Shown here: piece by piece, positions 54,710 through 64,000 of the stretch
Numbering within the stretch: position 1 is the stretch's first letter
Layout: the number at the start of each line of letters is the position of its first letter
From: Stigmatella aurantiaca
GTDB lineage: Bacteria; Myxococcota; Myxococcia; Myxococcales; Myxococcaceae
Assembly: GCF_900109545.1 (NCBI RefSeq)
Contig: NZ_FOAP01000003.1
Coordinates: 310,001-374,000 of the forward strand
DNA: 64,000 nucleotides
Direction: 5' to 3'
Made by a program: the position numbers and the translations under genes
The notes under the pieces: generated by a model
Told to the model about the DNA's origin: nothing
Databases searched by the model: none
What the model saw: the letters and a program-made list of their open reading frames with translations, nothing else

Positions 54710-56773
54710 TTACTCCGCGCGGGGCGTGGTGGCCTCGCACAGGTGCTCCAGGAACTCCGGCAGCAGGCCGGAGGAGATGATCCACAGCACGCCCTCGCCC
54801 AGGTCCGCCAGCGCCGCGCGCTCGGCGTACTCCACGTTGGTGCACTCCACGTAGTGGATGAAGAGGCGGCGGTTGCGCTCGCGGAACCACTCGGCCGCGC
54901 GCGTGAGCAGGCCGAACATGCCCTTCTGCGCCTCGGGCCGCGTGTCGTCGATGAGCGGGATGATGCGCACGCTGTCGAGGATCTGGAACAGGTTGAAGCC
55001 CGGGGTGGCCGTCTCGGCGATGCCGATCGCCACCGGCTTGCCGTCGATGCGGGCGACGAACGCCTCGCGCTCACGCGACAGCTGGGCGCTGTTCCACAGC
55101 TCGCGCGTGGCCTGCATGTCGAAGCGCTCGGGGACCAGATCCAACGCCTCGCGGAACGCCAGGGGCTTGGTCTGCTCCACGTGCTTGAAGAACACCGCGA
55201 GCTCTTCGGGCGTGGGCGTGCCCACCTCCACCCCGGCCGGGATGGGCTCCCAGGCGCGGTCCGTCTCGCCCTCCATCAGGCGGAAGTCGATGGCGGCCGA
55301 CTGCCCGGTGTGCTCGTACCACGAGGCGAAGTCGAACATCGCGTAGCGCGACCAGCGCACCCGGGCCTCGAAGTACCCGAAGAACCACTTCACGTCCGGG
55401 TCGAGCTGCGCCGGCTCGTAGCCGCGCAGGTAGATGTCGCGCAGCGCCTCGCGCGCGGAGACCTTCTTGCCCTCCAGGCCGGTGGGGTGCTGGCGCGCCA
55501 CCATGTGCGTCATCCAGCTGGTGCCGTAGGGCTTGGCCACCGAGATGGAGGCCTCCACCTTGGAGCCATCCAGCGGCTTGACGATGCGGAAGCCCAGGCG
55601 CGGCCGGCCCACCAGCTTGTTCTGCGTCTCGTAGAACTCGCGCTTGAAGGCGTCGAACTTCGTCGGGTCCTTGCCCGAGAGCCGGAAGTACCCGGACTTC
55701 TCGTACATGTCCCACACCGCGTCGTTCCAGTCGCCCGCGGTGCGGGTGCGCGGGTGGATCTGCTCCTCCACCATGGCGCGCCAGGCCACGCCGTGCTCCT
55801 CGTTGATGGGGCACACCCACATGCCGCAGCGGCGGCCCTTGGGGGTGGTGGAGATGTTGCGCACCTCGGCCAGAAGCTTCACCGGGGCGCGGTTGGGCAT
55901 CTCCACCTCCATCACCGGCACGCGCATGCCCGGGTAGAGCAGGTCCTCGCCGGGCTCGGTCATGAAGGACAGCCCCTCGTAGGAGATGTCCATCAGCGAG
56001 CGGCGCACGCTGACCTGCGGCCAGAGCGGGTGGTTGAAGGAGAGGAAGCAGTCGATGGTGATGGGGGCGCGGCGCAGCCAGCGGTGGCGGAAGCGCGTGA
56101 GCTCCACCGGCAGCGGCATCACCCACAGCCCGCCCTCTTCGTGCGCCCGGTCCACGCGGAAGTGCAGCACCGAGCTGTAGCCGAAGGCCTCCATCGTGAA
56201 GGGGCGCCGGGGAACCGGTACATCGGCCGCCCAGCCGATCGTCCCATCGTACTTGTCGAACAGCGCCGCGCGGACCTCCACGCGGGTGCCATCCTCCAGC
56301 CGCGCCACGCCGCGGGTGCTGCGCGCCGCCAGCGCCTCGCTGATGCGGAGGATGCGGTCCTCGCGGGTGATGACTTCCTTCCACACCGGGCGGGCCTCGG
56401 GCACCACCAGGTGGCCGCTCTCGCGCAGCAGCTCCAGCGCGGAGACGATCTGCCGGCCCGTGTCCAGCGGGGGCGCCACGAAGCGCAGGCTCAGCTCGGG
56501 CGACATCTCCGGGCCGCCCATGGACACGTCCATCACCTCGGCCTGCAGCGACGGGGTGCAGCGGTTGCCCAGCCCCAGCACCACGGAGGCCGCCTGGCCC
56601 GGGCGCAGGGACGTGCACGAGGCCATGTGCAGCGTCAGGTGCTCCAGCGAGAGCTGCACCAGCCGGCCCTCGGAGCCCTGCTCATCGCCGAACGAGGCGA
56701 CCGCCGACAACGCCGTGCCCATCCGGTAGCCCAGAATTGACTCGCGGGTCGACATCCGGTTGTCCGACTGCAT
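54710..56773 (-). CDS. PilZ domain protein with C-terminal GNAT-like domain
   Basis: A 687-residue soluble protein. It opens with a PilZ-like region (about 15-110: RESILGYRMGTALSAVASF, MDVSMGGPEMSPELSLRF), has a middle unit (150-250) and then a second PilZ-like region (about 260-360: VRRSLMDISYEGLSFMTEPG, LLAEVRNISTTPKGRRCGMWV). The C-terminal 270 residues resemble an acyltransferase-like (GNAT) fold, with FVARIDGKPVAIGIAETATPG as its clearest segment. Perhaps it links a cyclic-di-GMP signal to an acyl-transfer or binding function. The ATG at 56773 has GGAG at 6 bp. It is divergent from the Ser/Thr kinase gene. Confidence 0.75.
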   Translation of the reverse strand: MQSDNRMSTRESILGYRMGTALSAVASFGDEQGSEGRLVQLSLEHLTLHMASCTSLRPGQAASVVLGLGNRCTPSLQAEVMDVSMGGPEMSPELSLRFVAPPLDTGRQIVSALELLRESGHLVVPEARPVWKEVITREDRILRISEALAARSTRGVARLEDGTRVEVRAALFDKYDGTIGWAADVPVPRRPFTMEAFGYSSVLHFRVDRAHEEGGLWVMPLPVELTRFRHRWLRRAPITIDCFLSFNHPLWPQVSVRRSLMDISYEGLSFMTEPGEDLLYPGMRVPVMEVEMPNRAPVKLLAEVRNISTTPKGRRCGMWVCPINEEHGVAWRAMVEEQIHPRTRTAGDWNDAVWDMYEKSGYFRLSGKDPTKFDAFKREFYETQNKLVGRPRLGFRIVKPLDGSKVEASISVAKPYGTSWMTHMVARQHPTGLEGKKVSAREALRDIYLRGYEPAQLDPDVKWFFGYFEARVRWSRYAMFDFASWYEHTGQSAAIDFRLMEGETDRAWEPIPAGVEVGTPTPEELAVFFKHVEQTKPLAFREALDLVPERFDMQATRELWNSAQLSREREAFVARIDGKPVAIGIAETATPGFNLFQILDSVRIIPLIDDTRPEAQKGMFGLLTRAAEWFRERNRRLFIHYVECTNVEYAERAALADLGEGVLWIISSGLLPEFLEHLCEATTPRAE

Positions 56774-56806
56774 GGGAGCTCCGTCGCCGGGTGAATTGGC
56801 TTTTTC

Positions 56807-56840
56807 GTTATAGCAGAACAATTTCATAACACGGTTCTGC
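56807..56840 (-). promoter_or_regulatory. Extended -10 promoter overlapping a dyad
   Basis: On the minus strand TGCTATAAC gives an extended -10 box (TATAAC at 56807-56812) about 34 bp before the PilZ protein start. A perfect 7-bp dyad GCAGAAC (56813-56819) and GTTCTGC (56834-56840), spaced 14 bp so that the arms are two helical turns apart, covers the -10 to -35 interval. A repressor or activator site is likely. Confidence 0.45.
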
Positions 56841-56843
56841 GGT

Positions 56844-56865
56844 ATTCCCCTAAGGGAATTTTTTT
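56844..56865 (+). terminator. Intrinsic-terminator-like hairpin, plus strand
   Basis: ATTCCC and GGGAAT pair around a CTAA loop and are followed by six T residues on the plus strand. It lies in the divergent region and would stop plus-strand transcripts coming from antisense of the PilZ gene. Reading minus, it is in the upstream part of that gene's promoter region. Confidence 0.45.
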
Positions 56866-57261
56866 CCCTATCAGGGTTAGCAGCTTTTGTGCGGGGCGCA
56901 TCTGCCTCGGACCCAAGGGCAAGGTCCACTGCTTTTTGGGTGTGCGGAACTCCGCAAATGGTCAGGAAGCCGATCGTCCTCCAGGGGGGTTGAACTGTCT
57001 ACTGCCGGACCCTGAGCGCCGCCTCCTCCCTCGCTTGCCTCCCCCGGGGCCCGCGCGGTTGCAGCCTGTTCGCGGAATTCTCGTTCGTTGCCTGGGGGCT
57101 GTCCATCCCCCCGAAAATCCATGGTTTACGGATTCAACACGTTCAGATCCAATTGAAGAAGGCCGTCTCTGCTGGATCTGCCCCCGGGGGAGGGGGGGGT
57201 GTTCGCCGCACTGCGTCCCATCGAATGGGCGCGTGTTGCGGTATACACTCCACTTCCTCAC
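56866..57261 (+). other. Intergenic region upstream of Ser/Thr kinase
   Basis: About 396 bp between the terminator-like hairpin and the kinase start. TATACA at 57242-57247, 15 bp before the ATG, is a -10 candidate; no clear Shine-Dalgarno site precedes the start, so a very short leader is possible. No gene, RNA or repeat is recognised. Confidence 0.35.
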
Positions 57262-60427: not shown

Positions 60428-60483
60428 GGGACGTGAAAATTTCACGCCCCTATTGAAATCTGATCCGGGTTGTCGTCGATAAT
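60428..60483 (+). promoter_or_regulatory. Promoter with near-palindromic operator
   Basis: CGTGAAA (60432-60438) and TTTCACG (60440-60446) form a palindrome around a single A, extended by GGG and CCC after one mismatch on each side. TTGAAA at 60453-60458 and GATAAT at 60478-60483, spaced 19 bp, make a -35/-10 pair. The palindrome would sit just upstream of the -35 box of the haem-oxygenase-like gene. Confidence 0.42.
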
Positions 60484-60526
60484 GGGGCTCCCGTTGGCCC
60501 CACTCGCCGTTACCCAGGAGTCCTCC

Positions 60527-61855
60527 ATGACCTCTTCCTCGTCGTCGAAGTCTTCCCCGCTCTGGCAGACCCGGGCGCGGCCTCAAGTGGTCACGCACAA
60601 GGCCACCGAGAAGCTGGACGTCGTCATCGAGCGCGTACCGCAGGCGCAGCCCTCGCTGCTCGCGGCGCTGGCCTCCTCGCCGGCCGCGGAGTTCCTGGCC
60701 CCCGAGAGCCTGGAGAACACGCTGGGCGAGGACGTGGCGGTGGTGGACCGCGCCTCGGGCCGCACGGTGGCCTTCGCCAGCGTGCTCGCCGCGGAGGGCA
60801 CGGACTTCCAGAAGCGCACGCGCCTGGCGGGCAGCGCCCTGCAGCGCGCCGCCTACTTCACCCGCGTGCACGTGGCGCCGGACGCCCCGGCCGGCACGCA
60901 GGCGGTCCTCATGTACGCGGCGCTTCGCACCGCGCGCGCCTGGGGCCGCGATGTGGCCGCCTTCCTGATGGCGGACGATGACACCCCCACCTCGCGCCGC
61001 TATGGGCTCATCAACCTCGCCAACGTGGCGCGCGTGGACGTGCCCGGCAAGGGCGCCTTCCGCGCCAAGTCGCAGCGGCTGGACCTGCTTCTGCACCAGA
61101 CCTCCGAGGAGGCCGCCCAGGCCGGCCAGCCCCTGGCGCCCTCGTTCCTCGTGCACGAGATTCTGGACACCCTGCAGCACCAGCTCTTCACCCCGGTGAC
61201 GCAGGCGCGCTTCTTCACCGCGGTGGAGGCGGGCACCCTCACGCGCGAGCAATACATCTATTCGCTCACCCAGCTGCACCTGTTCGTGCGCTTCACCACG
61301 CGGCTGCTGGGCCGGTGCGTGGGTTACTCGCCCACCACCGAGCTGCGCACGCACTTCATCAGCCACCTCACCGGCGAGGTGAACCATGAAATCATCATCG
61401 AGCGCGACCTGGAGCACCTGGGCGAGAACCCCTCGTATGTGAAGGAGATTGCCCAGCCCAACGTGCCCACGCGCGAGTTCATGGCCTCGCAGGAGAGCGC
61501 CATCGGCTTCTACCAGGACCCGCTCTTGCTGCTCGTGGCGCCCCTGGCCGCCGAGGGCGTCACCGGGCACCTGGCCCCGGGCTTCATGGAGAAGCTCAAC
61601 GCGTGCGTCGCCTCGTGGGGGGTGAAGGACCCACAGAAGGCCACCCGCTTCCTCAGCTCGCACATCGAGTATGACGGCGGCGAGGACGGGCACTGGCAGG
61701 GCAACCTGGACTTGCTGTCCAAGCACCTTCACAACGAGACGTTGCTGCGCCGCTTCCTGACGCTCTTGCGCGTGGCGGCCGAGGGCACGCTGCGCCAGTG
61801 GGACAGCTACGTGGGCGATGTGGAGTTGTGGACGGCTCGCCCGCCGGCCCAGTAA
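60527..61855 (+). CDS. Acyltransferase-like/haem-oxygenase-like fusion protein
   Basis: A 442-residue soluble protein. The N-terminal part (about 25-200) resembles the N-acyl amino acid synthase/GNAT-like fold, with a conserved-looking YFTRVHVAPDAPAGTQAVLM. The C-terminal part (about 210-435) is an iron-containing-redox-enzyme (haem-oxygenase-like, HDO) fold, recognised from helices LVHEILDTLQHQLFTPVT and HFISHLTGEVNHEIIIERDL, where His and Glu residues could bind a di-iron centre. Neither activity can be fixed. CAGGAG lies 8 bp before the ATG at 60527. It follows a palindromic promoter region and is the most unusual fusion in this part of the window. Confidence 0.78.
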   Translation: MTSSSSSKSSPLWQTRARPQVVTHKATEKLDVVIERVPQAQPSLLAALASSPAAEFLAPESLENTLGEDVAVVDRASGRTVAFASVLAAEGTDFQKRTRLAGSALQRAAYFTRVHVAPDAPAGTQAVLMYAALRTARAWGRDVAAFLMADDDTPTSRRYGLINLANVARVDVPGKGAFRAKSQRLDLLLHQTSEEAAQAGQPLAPSFLVHEILDTLQHQLFTPVTQARFFTAVEAGTLTREQYIYSLTQLHLFVRFTTRLLGRCVGYSPTTELRTHFISHLTGEVNHEIIIERDLEHLGENPSYVKEIAQPNVPTREFMASQESAIGFYQDPLLLLVAPLAAEGVTGHLAPGFMEKLNACVASWGVKDPQKATRFLSSHIEYDGGEDGHWQGNLDLLSKHLHNETLLRRFLTLLRVAAEGTLRQWDSYVGDVELWTARPPAQ

Positions 61856-62021: not shown

Positions 62022-62462
62022 GTGACGACTGCATTCAAAACCGAAGTGATTGACCGGATCTTCTTTGCCCGGTACTCCCAGCCGCCGTCCAAGGACACCA
62101 CCGCGGCGGTGCTCGCGCTCGTGGCGGCCGCCCAGCAGCGGATTGGCCAGCCGCTCATCTACGTCGGCTCCATCGACTCCAAGTCGAAGGTCCCCAATGC
62201 CGAGGAGCGCAACAACCTCAACACCCTGCTGGCCGACCTGCGTCCGTACTGCGAGGCCATCAACCTCATCATCGAAGGCTCGGAGCTGCAGAACAGCCTC
62301 CAGCGCGTGGTCATCTCGGGCATGATCATCTTCACGCGCACCTACGACAACTTCGCGGTGCACAAGAGCATCGACGGCGTCACCGCGGACCTGGCCGAGC
62401 GGCTCAAGAAGGACGTGAGTCCCCTCATCAAGATGGCCCGTGACCGCGGTCTGGTGATGTAG
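62022..62462 (+). CDS. Small conserved protein, STAS-like fold suspected
   Basis: A 146-residue soluble protein starting at GTG (62022). It alternates strands and helices: RIFFARYSQPPSKDTTAAVL, QPLIYVGSIDSKSKVP, CEAINLIIEGSELQNSLQR and VVISGMIIFTRT. The pattern is like STAS/SpoIIAA-type or related small regulatory folds found next to kinases, but I cannot confirm the family. No signal peptide or membrane segment is present. GAGGAG is found 10-12 bp upstream. It lies between the haem-oxygenase-like gene and the FAD hydroxylase gene. Confidence 0.7.
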   Translation: MTTAFKTEVIDRIFFARYSQPPSKDTTAAVLALVAAAQQRIGQPLIYVGSIDSKSKVPNAEERNNLNTLLADLRPYCEAINLIIEGSELQNSLQRVVISGMIIFTRTYDNFAVHKSIDGVTADLAERLKKDVSPLIKMARDRGLVM

Positions 62463-62548: not shown

Positions 62549-62737
62549 CCTTACGGCCAAGGTCCCCGCCGCCCCCCGCCTTGCCCATGTGCACCGGAAG
62601 GGTGCCAGGCGAGCCATCTCCCGGAAGACTCCCACTCAAGGGAGCCGGGGGCGAGGGGCGAAGAATTCTGGACATCCGTTTAGACTTCCGCGCCAGTCCC
62701 TGCCCCTGCGGCGGGACGCCCTCTTCCCGGAGATGTG

Positions 62738-64000
62738 ATGTCCGCTGAGACTGTCGACGTAATCATCGTGGGGTGTGGCCCCGTGGGCGCCATCACCGCC
62801 AACTACCTGGGACAGGATGGAGTACGGACGCTCATCATCGACCGGGAGCTCTACGCCCACACACAGCCCCGGGCCTTCTCGTGTGACGACGAGACGCAGC
62901 GCAACTTCCAGTCCGCGGGCATGGTGGACGAGCTGGCGGTGAGCCTCTACCACTGCCCCCGGATGGACTACATCGACGGGCAGCGCAACGTGCTCGCCTC
63001 GGCGGTGTTCAAGGGGCTGGACTTCGGACATGGCCACACGGCGCTGGCCTTCTTCAGCCAGCCGCAGCTCGAGGGGGTGCTGCGCCAGGGCCTGCGCCGC
63101 TTTCCGCACGTGGAGCTGCGGATGGGGCACGAGGTGGAGTCCTTCACCCAGGATGCCGGCGGCGTCACCGTGCACATGACCGAGCGGCTCACGGGGCGCA
63201 AGCGCACCGTGCGCGCCCAGTACCTGCTGGGCTGCGATGGCTCGCACAGCAGCATCCGGGAGATGCTGCAGATTCCCATGAAGGGCACCTCCTACGGCGT
63301 GCCGTGGATCACCATCACCGCCACCACGCCCACCCCGGAGCCCATCTACACGTATTACGTGTGCGACCCCGAGCGGCCCGGCTTCGCCACGCGCGGCGCG
63401 CTGAATGAGATCCGCATGGACCTGCTGCTGCGCGGCAACGAGCGCACGGAGGTGGTGGAGAAGAAGGAAGTCGTCGAGCGCATCATCGGCTCGTTCATGG
63501 ACCCGAGCCTGGTGACCATCGTCCGGGCCGCGGTGTTCACCTTCCACAGCAAGGTGGCGCAGCGCTGGCGCGCCGGCCGCGTGTTTCTCCTGGGCGATGC
63601 GGCCCACCTGATGCCCCCCTTCCTGGGCCAGGGCATGTGCTCGGGCATCCGCGACGCGGTCAACCTCACCTGGAAGCTGGCCCTGGCGGTGAAGGGCACC
63701 GCGGGGGACGAGCTGCTCGATACCTACGAGCGAGAGCGGCGCCCCCACGCGGTGAACATGATCAACGCCACGGTGAAGATGGGGCAGATCTTCCTGTCCC
63801 GCTCGAAGTTCGTGGCGGCCCTGCGCAACAAGGTCATGCAGTGGATCTGGCGCAACCCGAAGACGCGCCCCCTCTTGCGTGACTGGAAGGTGAAGCAGCC
63901 CATCGTGCTCACCCACGGCTTCATGGCGGGCGGCAAGCACAAGAAGGGCCTGTCCGGGGGCACGTACTTCCCCCAGCCCACGGTGGGGCTCGCGGGCGGC
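62738..64000 (+). CDS. FAD-dependent MhpA-type aromatic hydroxylase (partial)
   Basis: The first 421 residues of a flavin monooxygenase cut off by the window end. The FAD-binding motif is VIIVGCGPVGAITANYLG at about 8-25, GCDGSHSSIR is the DG motif at about 166-175, and GDAAHLMPPFLGQGMCSGIRD supplies the second FAD-binding GD motif at about 286. Members such as MhpA hydroxylate phenolic rings with NAD(P)H and O2, and the order of segments matches 3-(3-hydroxyphenyl)propionate hydroxylases. Related enzymes also act in secondary metabolism, so the substrate is uncertain. The ATG at 62738 follows CGGAG. Other aromatic-pathway genes may lie beyond the edge. Confidence 0.87.
   Translation, partial: MSAETVDVIIVGCGPVGAITANYLGQDGVRTLIIDRELYAHTQPRAFSCDDETQRNFQSAGMVDELAVSLYHCPRMDYIDGQRNVLASAVFKGLDFGHGHTALAFFSQPQLEGVLRQGLRRFPHVELRMGHEVESFTQDAGGVTVHMTERLTGRKRTVRAQYLLGCDGSHSSIREMLQIPMKGTSYGVPWITITATTPTPEPIYTYYVCDPERPGFATRGALNEIRMDLLLRGNERTEVVEKKEVVERIIGSFMDPSLVTIVRAAVFTFHSKVAQRWRAGRVFLLGDAAHLMPPFLGQGMCSGIRDAVNLTWKLALAVKGTAGDELLDTYERERRPHAVNMINATVKMGQIFLSRSKFVAALRNKVMQWIWRNPKTRPLLRDWKVKQPIVLTHGFMAGGKHKKGLSGGTYFPQPTVGLAGG

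Follow-up and report, generated by a model that had tools for sequence, protein, structure and literature searches.

The fusion gene and its surroundings

Near the right-hand end of the window, by which we mean the whole stretch of 64,000 nucleotides analysed here, lies a plus-strand gene for a protein of 442 residues (P0001) that joins a predicted GNAT-type fold to a putative haem-oxygenase-like dimetal oxidase (HDO). The first-pass annotation had described a protein of this length with two such regions; the frame is present behind an AGGAG sequence, and the fusion is conserved across nine members. A longer frame in the open reading frame list, starting at a TTG at 60470, is unlikely to be used, as this codon lies 5′ of the -10-like hexamer. 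The features discussed below are as follows.

60428–60450, no strand assigned: inverted repeat GGGA-CGTGAAA-A-TTTCACG-CCCC, candidate operator, read from the sequence
60453–60458, plus strand: -35-like hexamer TTGAAA
60478–60483, plus strand: -10-like hexamer GATAAT
60516–60520, plus strand: putative ribosome-binding site AGGAG, likewise a sequence match
60527–61855, plus strand: gene for P0001, from ATG at 60527 to a TAA ending at 61855
60575–61120, plus strand: predicted GNAT-fold domain (approximately residues 17–198)
61124–61855, plus strand: putative HDO domain (approximately residues 200–442)
61376–61387, plus strand: putative ligand pair E284-x2-H287, from the joint alignment
61553–61555, plus strand: putative ligand E343, from the joint alignment
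61661–61693, plus strand: putative ligands H379, D383 and H389, with a three-residue insertion, from the joint alignment
62022–62462, plus strand: 146-residue protein from a family that is widespread in the group
62735–64000, plus strand: FAD-dependent aromatic hydroxylase (MhpA-like), truncated where the window ends

In 7 of 8 loci the small protein is encoded beside the fusion, and in 7 of 8 the hydroxylase lies 3′ of the fusion. Six loci have the fusion followed by the 146-residue protein, the FAD hydroxylase and another copy of the small protein, all in the same direction; the first small gene is missing in G040, and the small gene alone is present in G042. The small-protein family is general in the group (64/96 genomes), so that among the downstream neighbours the hydroxylase alone is informative. 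The two small proteins flanking the hydroxylase (62022–62462 of the window and 13409–13855 of L027) are paralogues without a Pfam family. A GNAT gene near position 64,900 in window numbering, on the minus strand, was rejected as a partner because it accompanies the fusion in only 3 of 8 loci and lies on the opposite strand. Upstream are genes for a DUF2807 protein and a kinase-like protein (so classified by eye), together with an oppositely oriented gene for a PilZ protein. The last of these (739 residues; 54710–56929, minus strand) has a long C-terminal part without a Pfam match.

Distribution and sequence conservation

Among 96 genomes of the family, the fusion was found in eight, comprising 7/7 of the genus and 1/89 of the others, and hence the gene is no assembly accident. 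The orthologues in these eight genomes share 63–98% identity. A ninth homologue, from a Sandaracinaceae MAG (protein P0002 at L002), is 39% identical over the shared part and carries about 230 additional N-terminal residues in the same frame, which gave weak GNAT matches (PF00583, E 0.1; PRK07757, E 0.01). When a profile of the nine members was run against 195 genomes of the phylum, one further weak match was obtained, to a stand-alone HDO gene in G002. No relatives of the fusion were detected in the viral contigs or plasmids searched. A 1009-residue open frame in G042 was rejected as a longer fusion, as its surplus part is antisense to another gene.

P0001 had no Pfam match at E up to 5 and no NCBIfam match, and none of the nine fusion members matched Pfam; a PHROGs match at E 0.18 was disregarded. 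The full fusion profile had no match among PDB sequences at E up to 1. As a single sequence, P0001 gave three PDB matches (E 0.14–0.71), two of them to the TenA-like proteins 2a6b and 1z72 over residues 203–344. The two halves did not fall into one known single-function family. A full-length model, built from two sequences, reached a pLDDT of 39.2.

In four close pairs, dN/dS was 0.16–0.21 for the N-terminal half and 0.04–0.10 for the HDO half. Both halves are under purifying selection, and the HDO half is the more constrained. Three more distant pairs (0.31–0.68) were left out because their GC-rich synonymous sites look saturated.

An upstream palindrome conserved in one sub-clade

The first-pass annotation had called the gene palindrome-controlled, on the strength of CGTGAAA-A-TTTCACG with flanking GGG/CCC ahead of a -35/-10 pair. 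All of these elements are present. The -35-like hexamer is TTGAAA in seven of the eight genomes and TTGGAA in one (G042), and the -10-like hexamer follows 19 nt past it with the same spacing in all eight. A promoter scanner that allows 16–18 nt reported no promoter, because the hexamers are 19 nt apart.

Judged by its symmetry, the palindrome is close to what chance would give and not special. The window contains 13 sites in which 7-bp arms surround a 1-nt centre, compared with a mean of 10.1 (range 5–17) in 20 random sequences matched to it in dinucleotide composition; for 11-bp arms with at most one mismatch there are 4 window sites, the palindrome at 60428 among them, compared with 1.8 (range 0–3) in the same controls. 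The repeat is kept in G038, G037 and G036, and is absent ahead of the fusion gene in G039, G040, G041 and G042, that is, in four of the eight genomes compared. The three sister genomes carry a different base at its outermost left position, which leaves the window's genome as the only one with a perfect 7-bp arm.

Its conservation is more distinctive. Against G037 and G036, respectively, 21 and 20 of the 23 palindrome positions are identical, as are 34 and 34 of 36 in the promoter stretch, 30 and 32 of the 40 bp after it, and 36 and 37 of the 63 bp upstream of the palindrome. The 9.4 Mb genome contains two copies of the palindrome core GTGAAANTTTCAC, and in 4/7 genomes of the genus this core stands at the fusion gene. 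We read the palindrome as the candidate operator of one sub-clade: what stands of the earlier claim is a conserved element beside the promoter in these close relatives, and what does not is any distinction by symmetry or presence throughout the eight loci. A chance inverted repeat, no operator but kept in close relatives because it lies beside a promoter, would explain the near-chance symmetry and the four genomes without it, and we rate this explanation somewhat below an even prospect; the excess of conserved positions over the adjacent upstream 63 bp and the two copies of the core in 9.4 Mb speak against it.

The C-terminal half resembles dimetal oxidases

The haem-oxygenase-like character proposed earlier for the C-terminal half is supported by profile comparison and by a putative set of metal ligands. 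The fusion C-terminal profile matched a family of stand-alone HDO proteins, most of them encoded behind a FeeM-type gene (see below), with an hhalign probability of 96.3% and E 1.9e-9; one member of this family, P0006, matches PF14518 at 9.3e-17. The gathering cut-off of PF14518 is 28.9 bits, which none of the nine fusion members reaches: P0002, the MAG protein, scores 19.7 bits at full length, and its trimmed part had no match. The HDO-domain profile gave a best E of 1.1 against PDB sequences, with two kinase chains and one TenA protein, and Foldseek on the poor full-length model (pLDDT 39) listed TenA chains among its rows at E 0.12 and higher.

The ligand positions were compared in an alignment of the nine fusions, 30 paired HDOs and seven others. 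E284, H287, E343, H379, D383 and H389 are invariant in 9/9 fusions and the same in 30/30 paired HDOs. Among the seven others, E284, E343 and H379 are kept in all, D383 and H389 in six, and H287 in four, where some of the mismatches are alignment shifts; in both KAS III-HDO rows H287 is misaligned and was counted as a mismatch. The di-iron-type ligand check suggested by the first-pass annotation thus returned a complete 3-His/3-carboxylate set, which a passage of PMC13108848 gives as the commonest in HDOs.

All nine fusions have a three-residue insertion before the last His (DGG[ED]DGH) that is found in none of the 37 other aligned proteins. Such an insertion could shift this His out of the site. 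PMC13108848 describes the ligand helix alpha-3 of HDOs as flexible, and the insertion may be tolerated.

The N-terminal half has a predicted GNAT fold

Modelled alone, the N-terminal domain reached a pLDDT of 54.5, rising to about 80 in some stretches of the central strands; its strands and helices follow the GNAT order. Foldseek with this model gave a best E of 2.7e-4, and the 50 rows shown were acetyltransferases or other GNAT-fold proteins (TacT, Mom and the 7byy toxin). With VIA, yeast GNA1 was matched at Z 8.7 (rmsd 3.9, 103 residues aligned), a score that the tool places near the reach of unrelated models. The VIA rows shown were again acetyltransferases or proteins containing such a domain (Elp3 and ICL2). 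FeeM structures are missing from these fold rows, a gap that carries no weight. A VIA match of the full model to the AHL synthase TofI (Z 7.6) was not used, being tied with many other GNATs. Together these comparisons assign a GNAT fold to the N-terminal half with moderate confidence.

The domain had been annotated as N-acyl amino acid synthase-like. The acyltransferase-type fold is consistent with this description to the extent that a model of moderate quality allows, whereas the more specific kinship did not hold at the level of sequence: no fusion member has a PF21926 or FeeM match by Pfam, and the N-domain aligned with a profile of 23 FeeM-type sequences at an hhalign probability of 0.2%. 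In GNAT enzymes the turn that binds the CoA pyrophosphate carries the motif R/Q-x-x-G-x-G/A. The corresponding turn in the window protein reads A-P-A-G-T-Q; the Arg/Gln is absent, and one Gly (G123) is kept in the eight Myxococcaceae proteins, none in the MAG homologue. The CoA-binding turn thus appears eroded.

Related HDO genes lie beside acyl-handling enzymes

When the HDO-domain profile was run against the 195 genomes, it found the eight orthologues and seven other places, all of them among the relatives of P0006; adjacency to a FeeM-type gene was seen in both of those inspected (L065 and L091). P0006 itself is encoded directly behind a FeeM-type gene, P0007 (PF21926, 28.2 bits against a cut-off of 27), with overlapping open frames. 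From a longer list of P0006 relatives, 30 loci were fetched. A FeeM-type gene stands directly upstream of the HDO gene at full length in 23 of these and in part in two; five have none, one of which is cut by a contig end. A LuxR-type regulator lies within the fetched stretch in 22/30. Because the HDO family closest to the fusion mostly follows a FeeM-type gene, the first-pass idea of a protein that might make and then oxidise a fatty-acyl product gains indirect support.

The FeeM-type/HDO/LuxR cassette recurs in Myxococcaceae (L065–L094), and is also present in the window's own genome, at L032, where its parts are arranged as follows. It could possibly serve as a unit for signal synthesis and sensing.

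437–1267 of L032, plus strand: FeeM-type gene
to 2064 of L032, plus strand: HDO gene
2150–3214 of L032, minus strand: LuxR-type regulator gene

Relatives of P0006 were also found in 24 plasmid records. Eight were examined, all from Pseudomonadota, and seven of these carry a row of T_hemolysin (PF12261), AMP-binding, HDO and SDR genes, while one does not; the PF12261 protein is GNAT-like. In two of the seven rows (L107 and L108) ligase and HDO form one gene. The hosts of the rows (L103 and L105–L110) are Variovorax, Vibrio, Pseudoalteromonas, Novosphingobium and Alteromonas.

Open frames of 625–740 residues had been suspected of being further GNAT-HDO fusions; the four that were read, each from a different genome, proved to be fusions of a KAS III-type ketoacyl synthase to an HDO, about 640–710 residues long; in one of them the HDO part falls just under the Pfam cut-off.

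1983–4121 of L095, minus strand: KAS III-HDO fusion
1967–3919 of L096, minus strand: KAS III-HDO fusion
222–2255 of L097, plus strand: KAS III-HDO fusion
1513–3438 of L098, plus strand: KAS III-HDO fusion

The recurring partners of HDOs are enzymes of activated acyl groups, which gives the strongest argument, though a circumstantial one, that the fusion may work on an acylated molecule.

A possible sequential enzyme

We propose that the fusion is a biosynthetic enzyme whose two domains act in sequence on one acylated small molecule, and give this proposal an even chance of being correct. The HDO domain would bind two metal ions (Fe/Fe or Fe/Mn), activate O2 and oxidise the small acylated molecule by desaturation, hydroxylation or oxidative decarboxylation. 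The GNAT-fold domain, which would bind the acyl or amine portion of this molecule, would make or hold it, and both would act on the same substrate one after the other, as the separately encoded FeeM-type synthase and HDO of these genomes presumably do. The metal, the O2 chemistry, the substrate and the sequential action are what we infer for the fusion; they are suggested by the invariant ligands, the profile kinship (E 1.9e-9), the GNAT topology and the FeeM-paired relatives, by HDOs fused to KAS III or to an AMP-binding ligase, by the plasmid rows and the FAD hydroxylase downstream in 7/8 loci, and by purifying selection on both halves in the four close pairs. Weighing against the proposal are an N-domain without FeeM similarity, its eroded CoA turn and the lack of a Pfam match, together with the three-residue insertion, the poor full-length model and the faster evolution of the N-domain.

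The main rival to a sequential enzyme is an inert GNAT half, a pseudo-enzyme that serves dimerisation or partner binding without substrate contact, so that the protein would be an ordinary HDO with a decorated N terminus. This would fit the eroded CoA turn, the faster evolution of the N-domain and its lack of FeeM kinship, and in the MAG homologue the extra N-terminal region with its weak GNAT matches could do the transfer instead. The N-domain is nevertheless still under purifying selection, and GNAT-type or other acyl-handling partners recur beside HDOs, which makes an inert half possible but rather unlikely. An HDO half that acts on no small molecule at all, being self-modifying like CADD or, as has been proposed for DtpC of Acinetobacter, protecting from iron or oxidants (such HDOs are reported in PMC13232832 and PMC13108848), is improbable, since the fusion to a GNAT fold, the hydroxylase downstream in 7/8 loci and the nearest kinship to FeeM-paired HDOs all point to biosynthesis.

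Within the sequential two-domain reading, the chances that the GNAT half has kept acyl-transfer activity are about balanced. A stricter version, in which the fusion acylates an amino acid-like amine and then oxidises the product at its dimetal centre under a dedicated operator, seems to us unlikely, although the idea of one protein that makes and then oxidises its product is conceivable. If it were true, the fusion would yield an oxidised N-acyl metabolite, either a signal or a protective lipid, and would correspond in fused form to the FeeM-HDO-LuxR cassettes that these genomes also carry.

Relation to known systems

With the HDO superfamily (UndA, SznF, BesC and CADD; PF14518 or TenA-type fold), the fusion shares the 3-His/3-carboxylate set in the same register, and its C-terminal half has profile kinship to PF14518 proteins. 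It differs in lying below or outside the Pfam cut-off, in the insertion before the last His and in its N-terminal GNAT-fold domain. SznF, as described in PMC13108848, is likewise a single chain that combines an HDO with another domain; in that case the partner is a C-terminal cupin, the order is different and SznF has an extra carboxylate ligand.

The two-gene cassettes of Myxococcaceae, FeeM-type (PF21926/PF13444) plus HDO, contain the nearest HDO family and, like the fusion, place a GNAT-type enzyme before an HDO. There the genes are separate and often accompanied by a LuxR-type regulator (22/30 loci), and the FeeM protein has no detectable relation to the fusion's N-domain. The plasmid rows are akin to the fusion in setting an HDO beside a PF12261 protein and a ligase, but consist of four or more genes, in which the HDO stands by itself or, in L107 and L108, shares a gene with the ligase.

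The full-text literature searched yielded neither a GNAT-HDO fusion nor a FeeM-HDO cassette, which is weak evidence, as most subscription papers lie outside such a search; nor did that literature yield a function for the T_hemolysin/AMP-binding/HDO/SDR rows or products of the FeeM-HDO-LuxR cassettes. PMC10469919 names an HDO gene solely as a predicted interaction partner, and does the same for a thermostable hemolysin. According to a passage of PMC13108848, the HDO superfamily has >10,000 members, of which about a dozen are functionally validated. Against this background the fusion names a functional partner of an HDO directly. Taken with the FeeM pairs, the fusions to KAS III and the rows containing a ligase, it points to acyl-chain chemistry, so that the substrate class can be put to the test in bacteria for a large group of unassigned HDOs.

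The window's genome holds seven further PF14518 matches besides the L032 pair, one of them under the cut-off. It also encodes an HDO-cupin fusion (L034, 976–2256, minus strand), in which the columns of D383 and H389 are occupied by Ser and Arg, so that these ligands have been lost.
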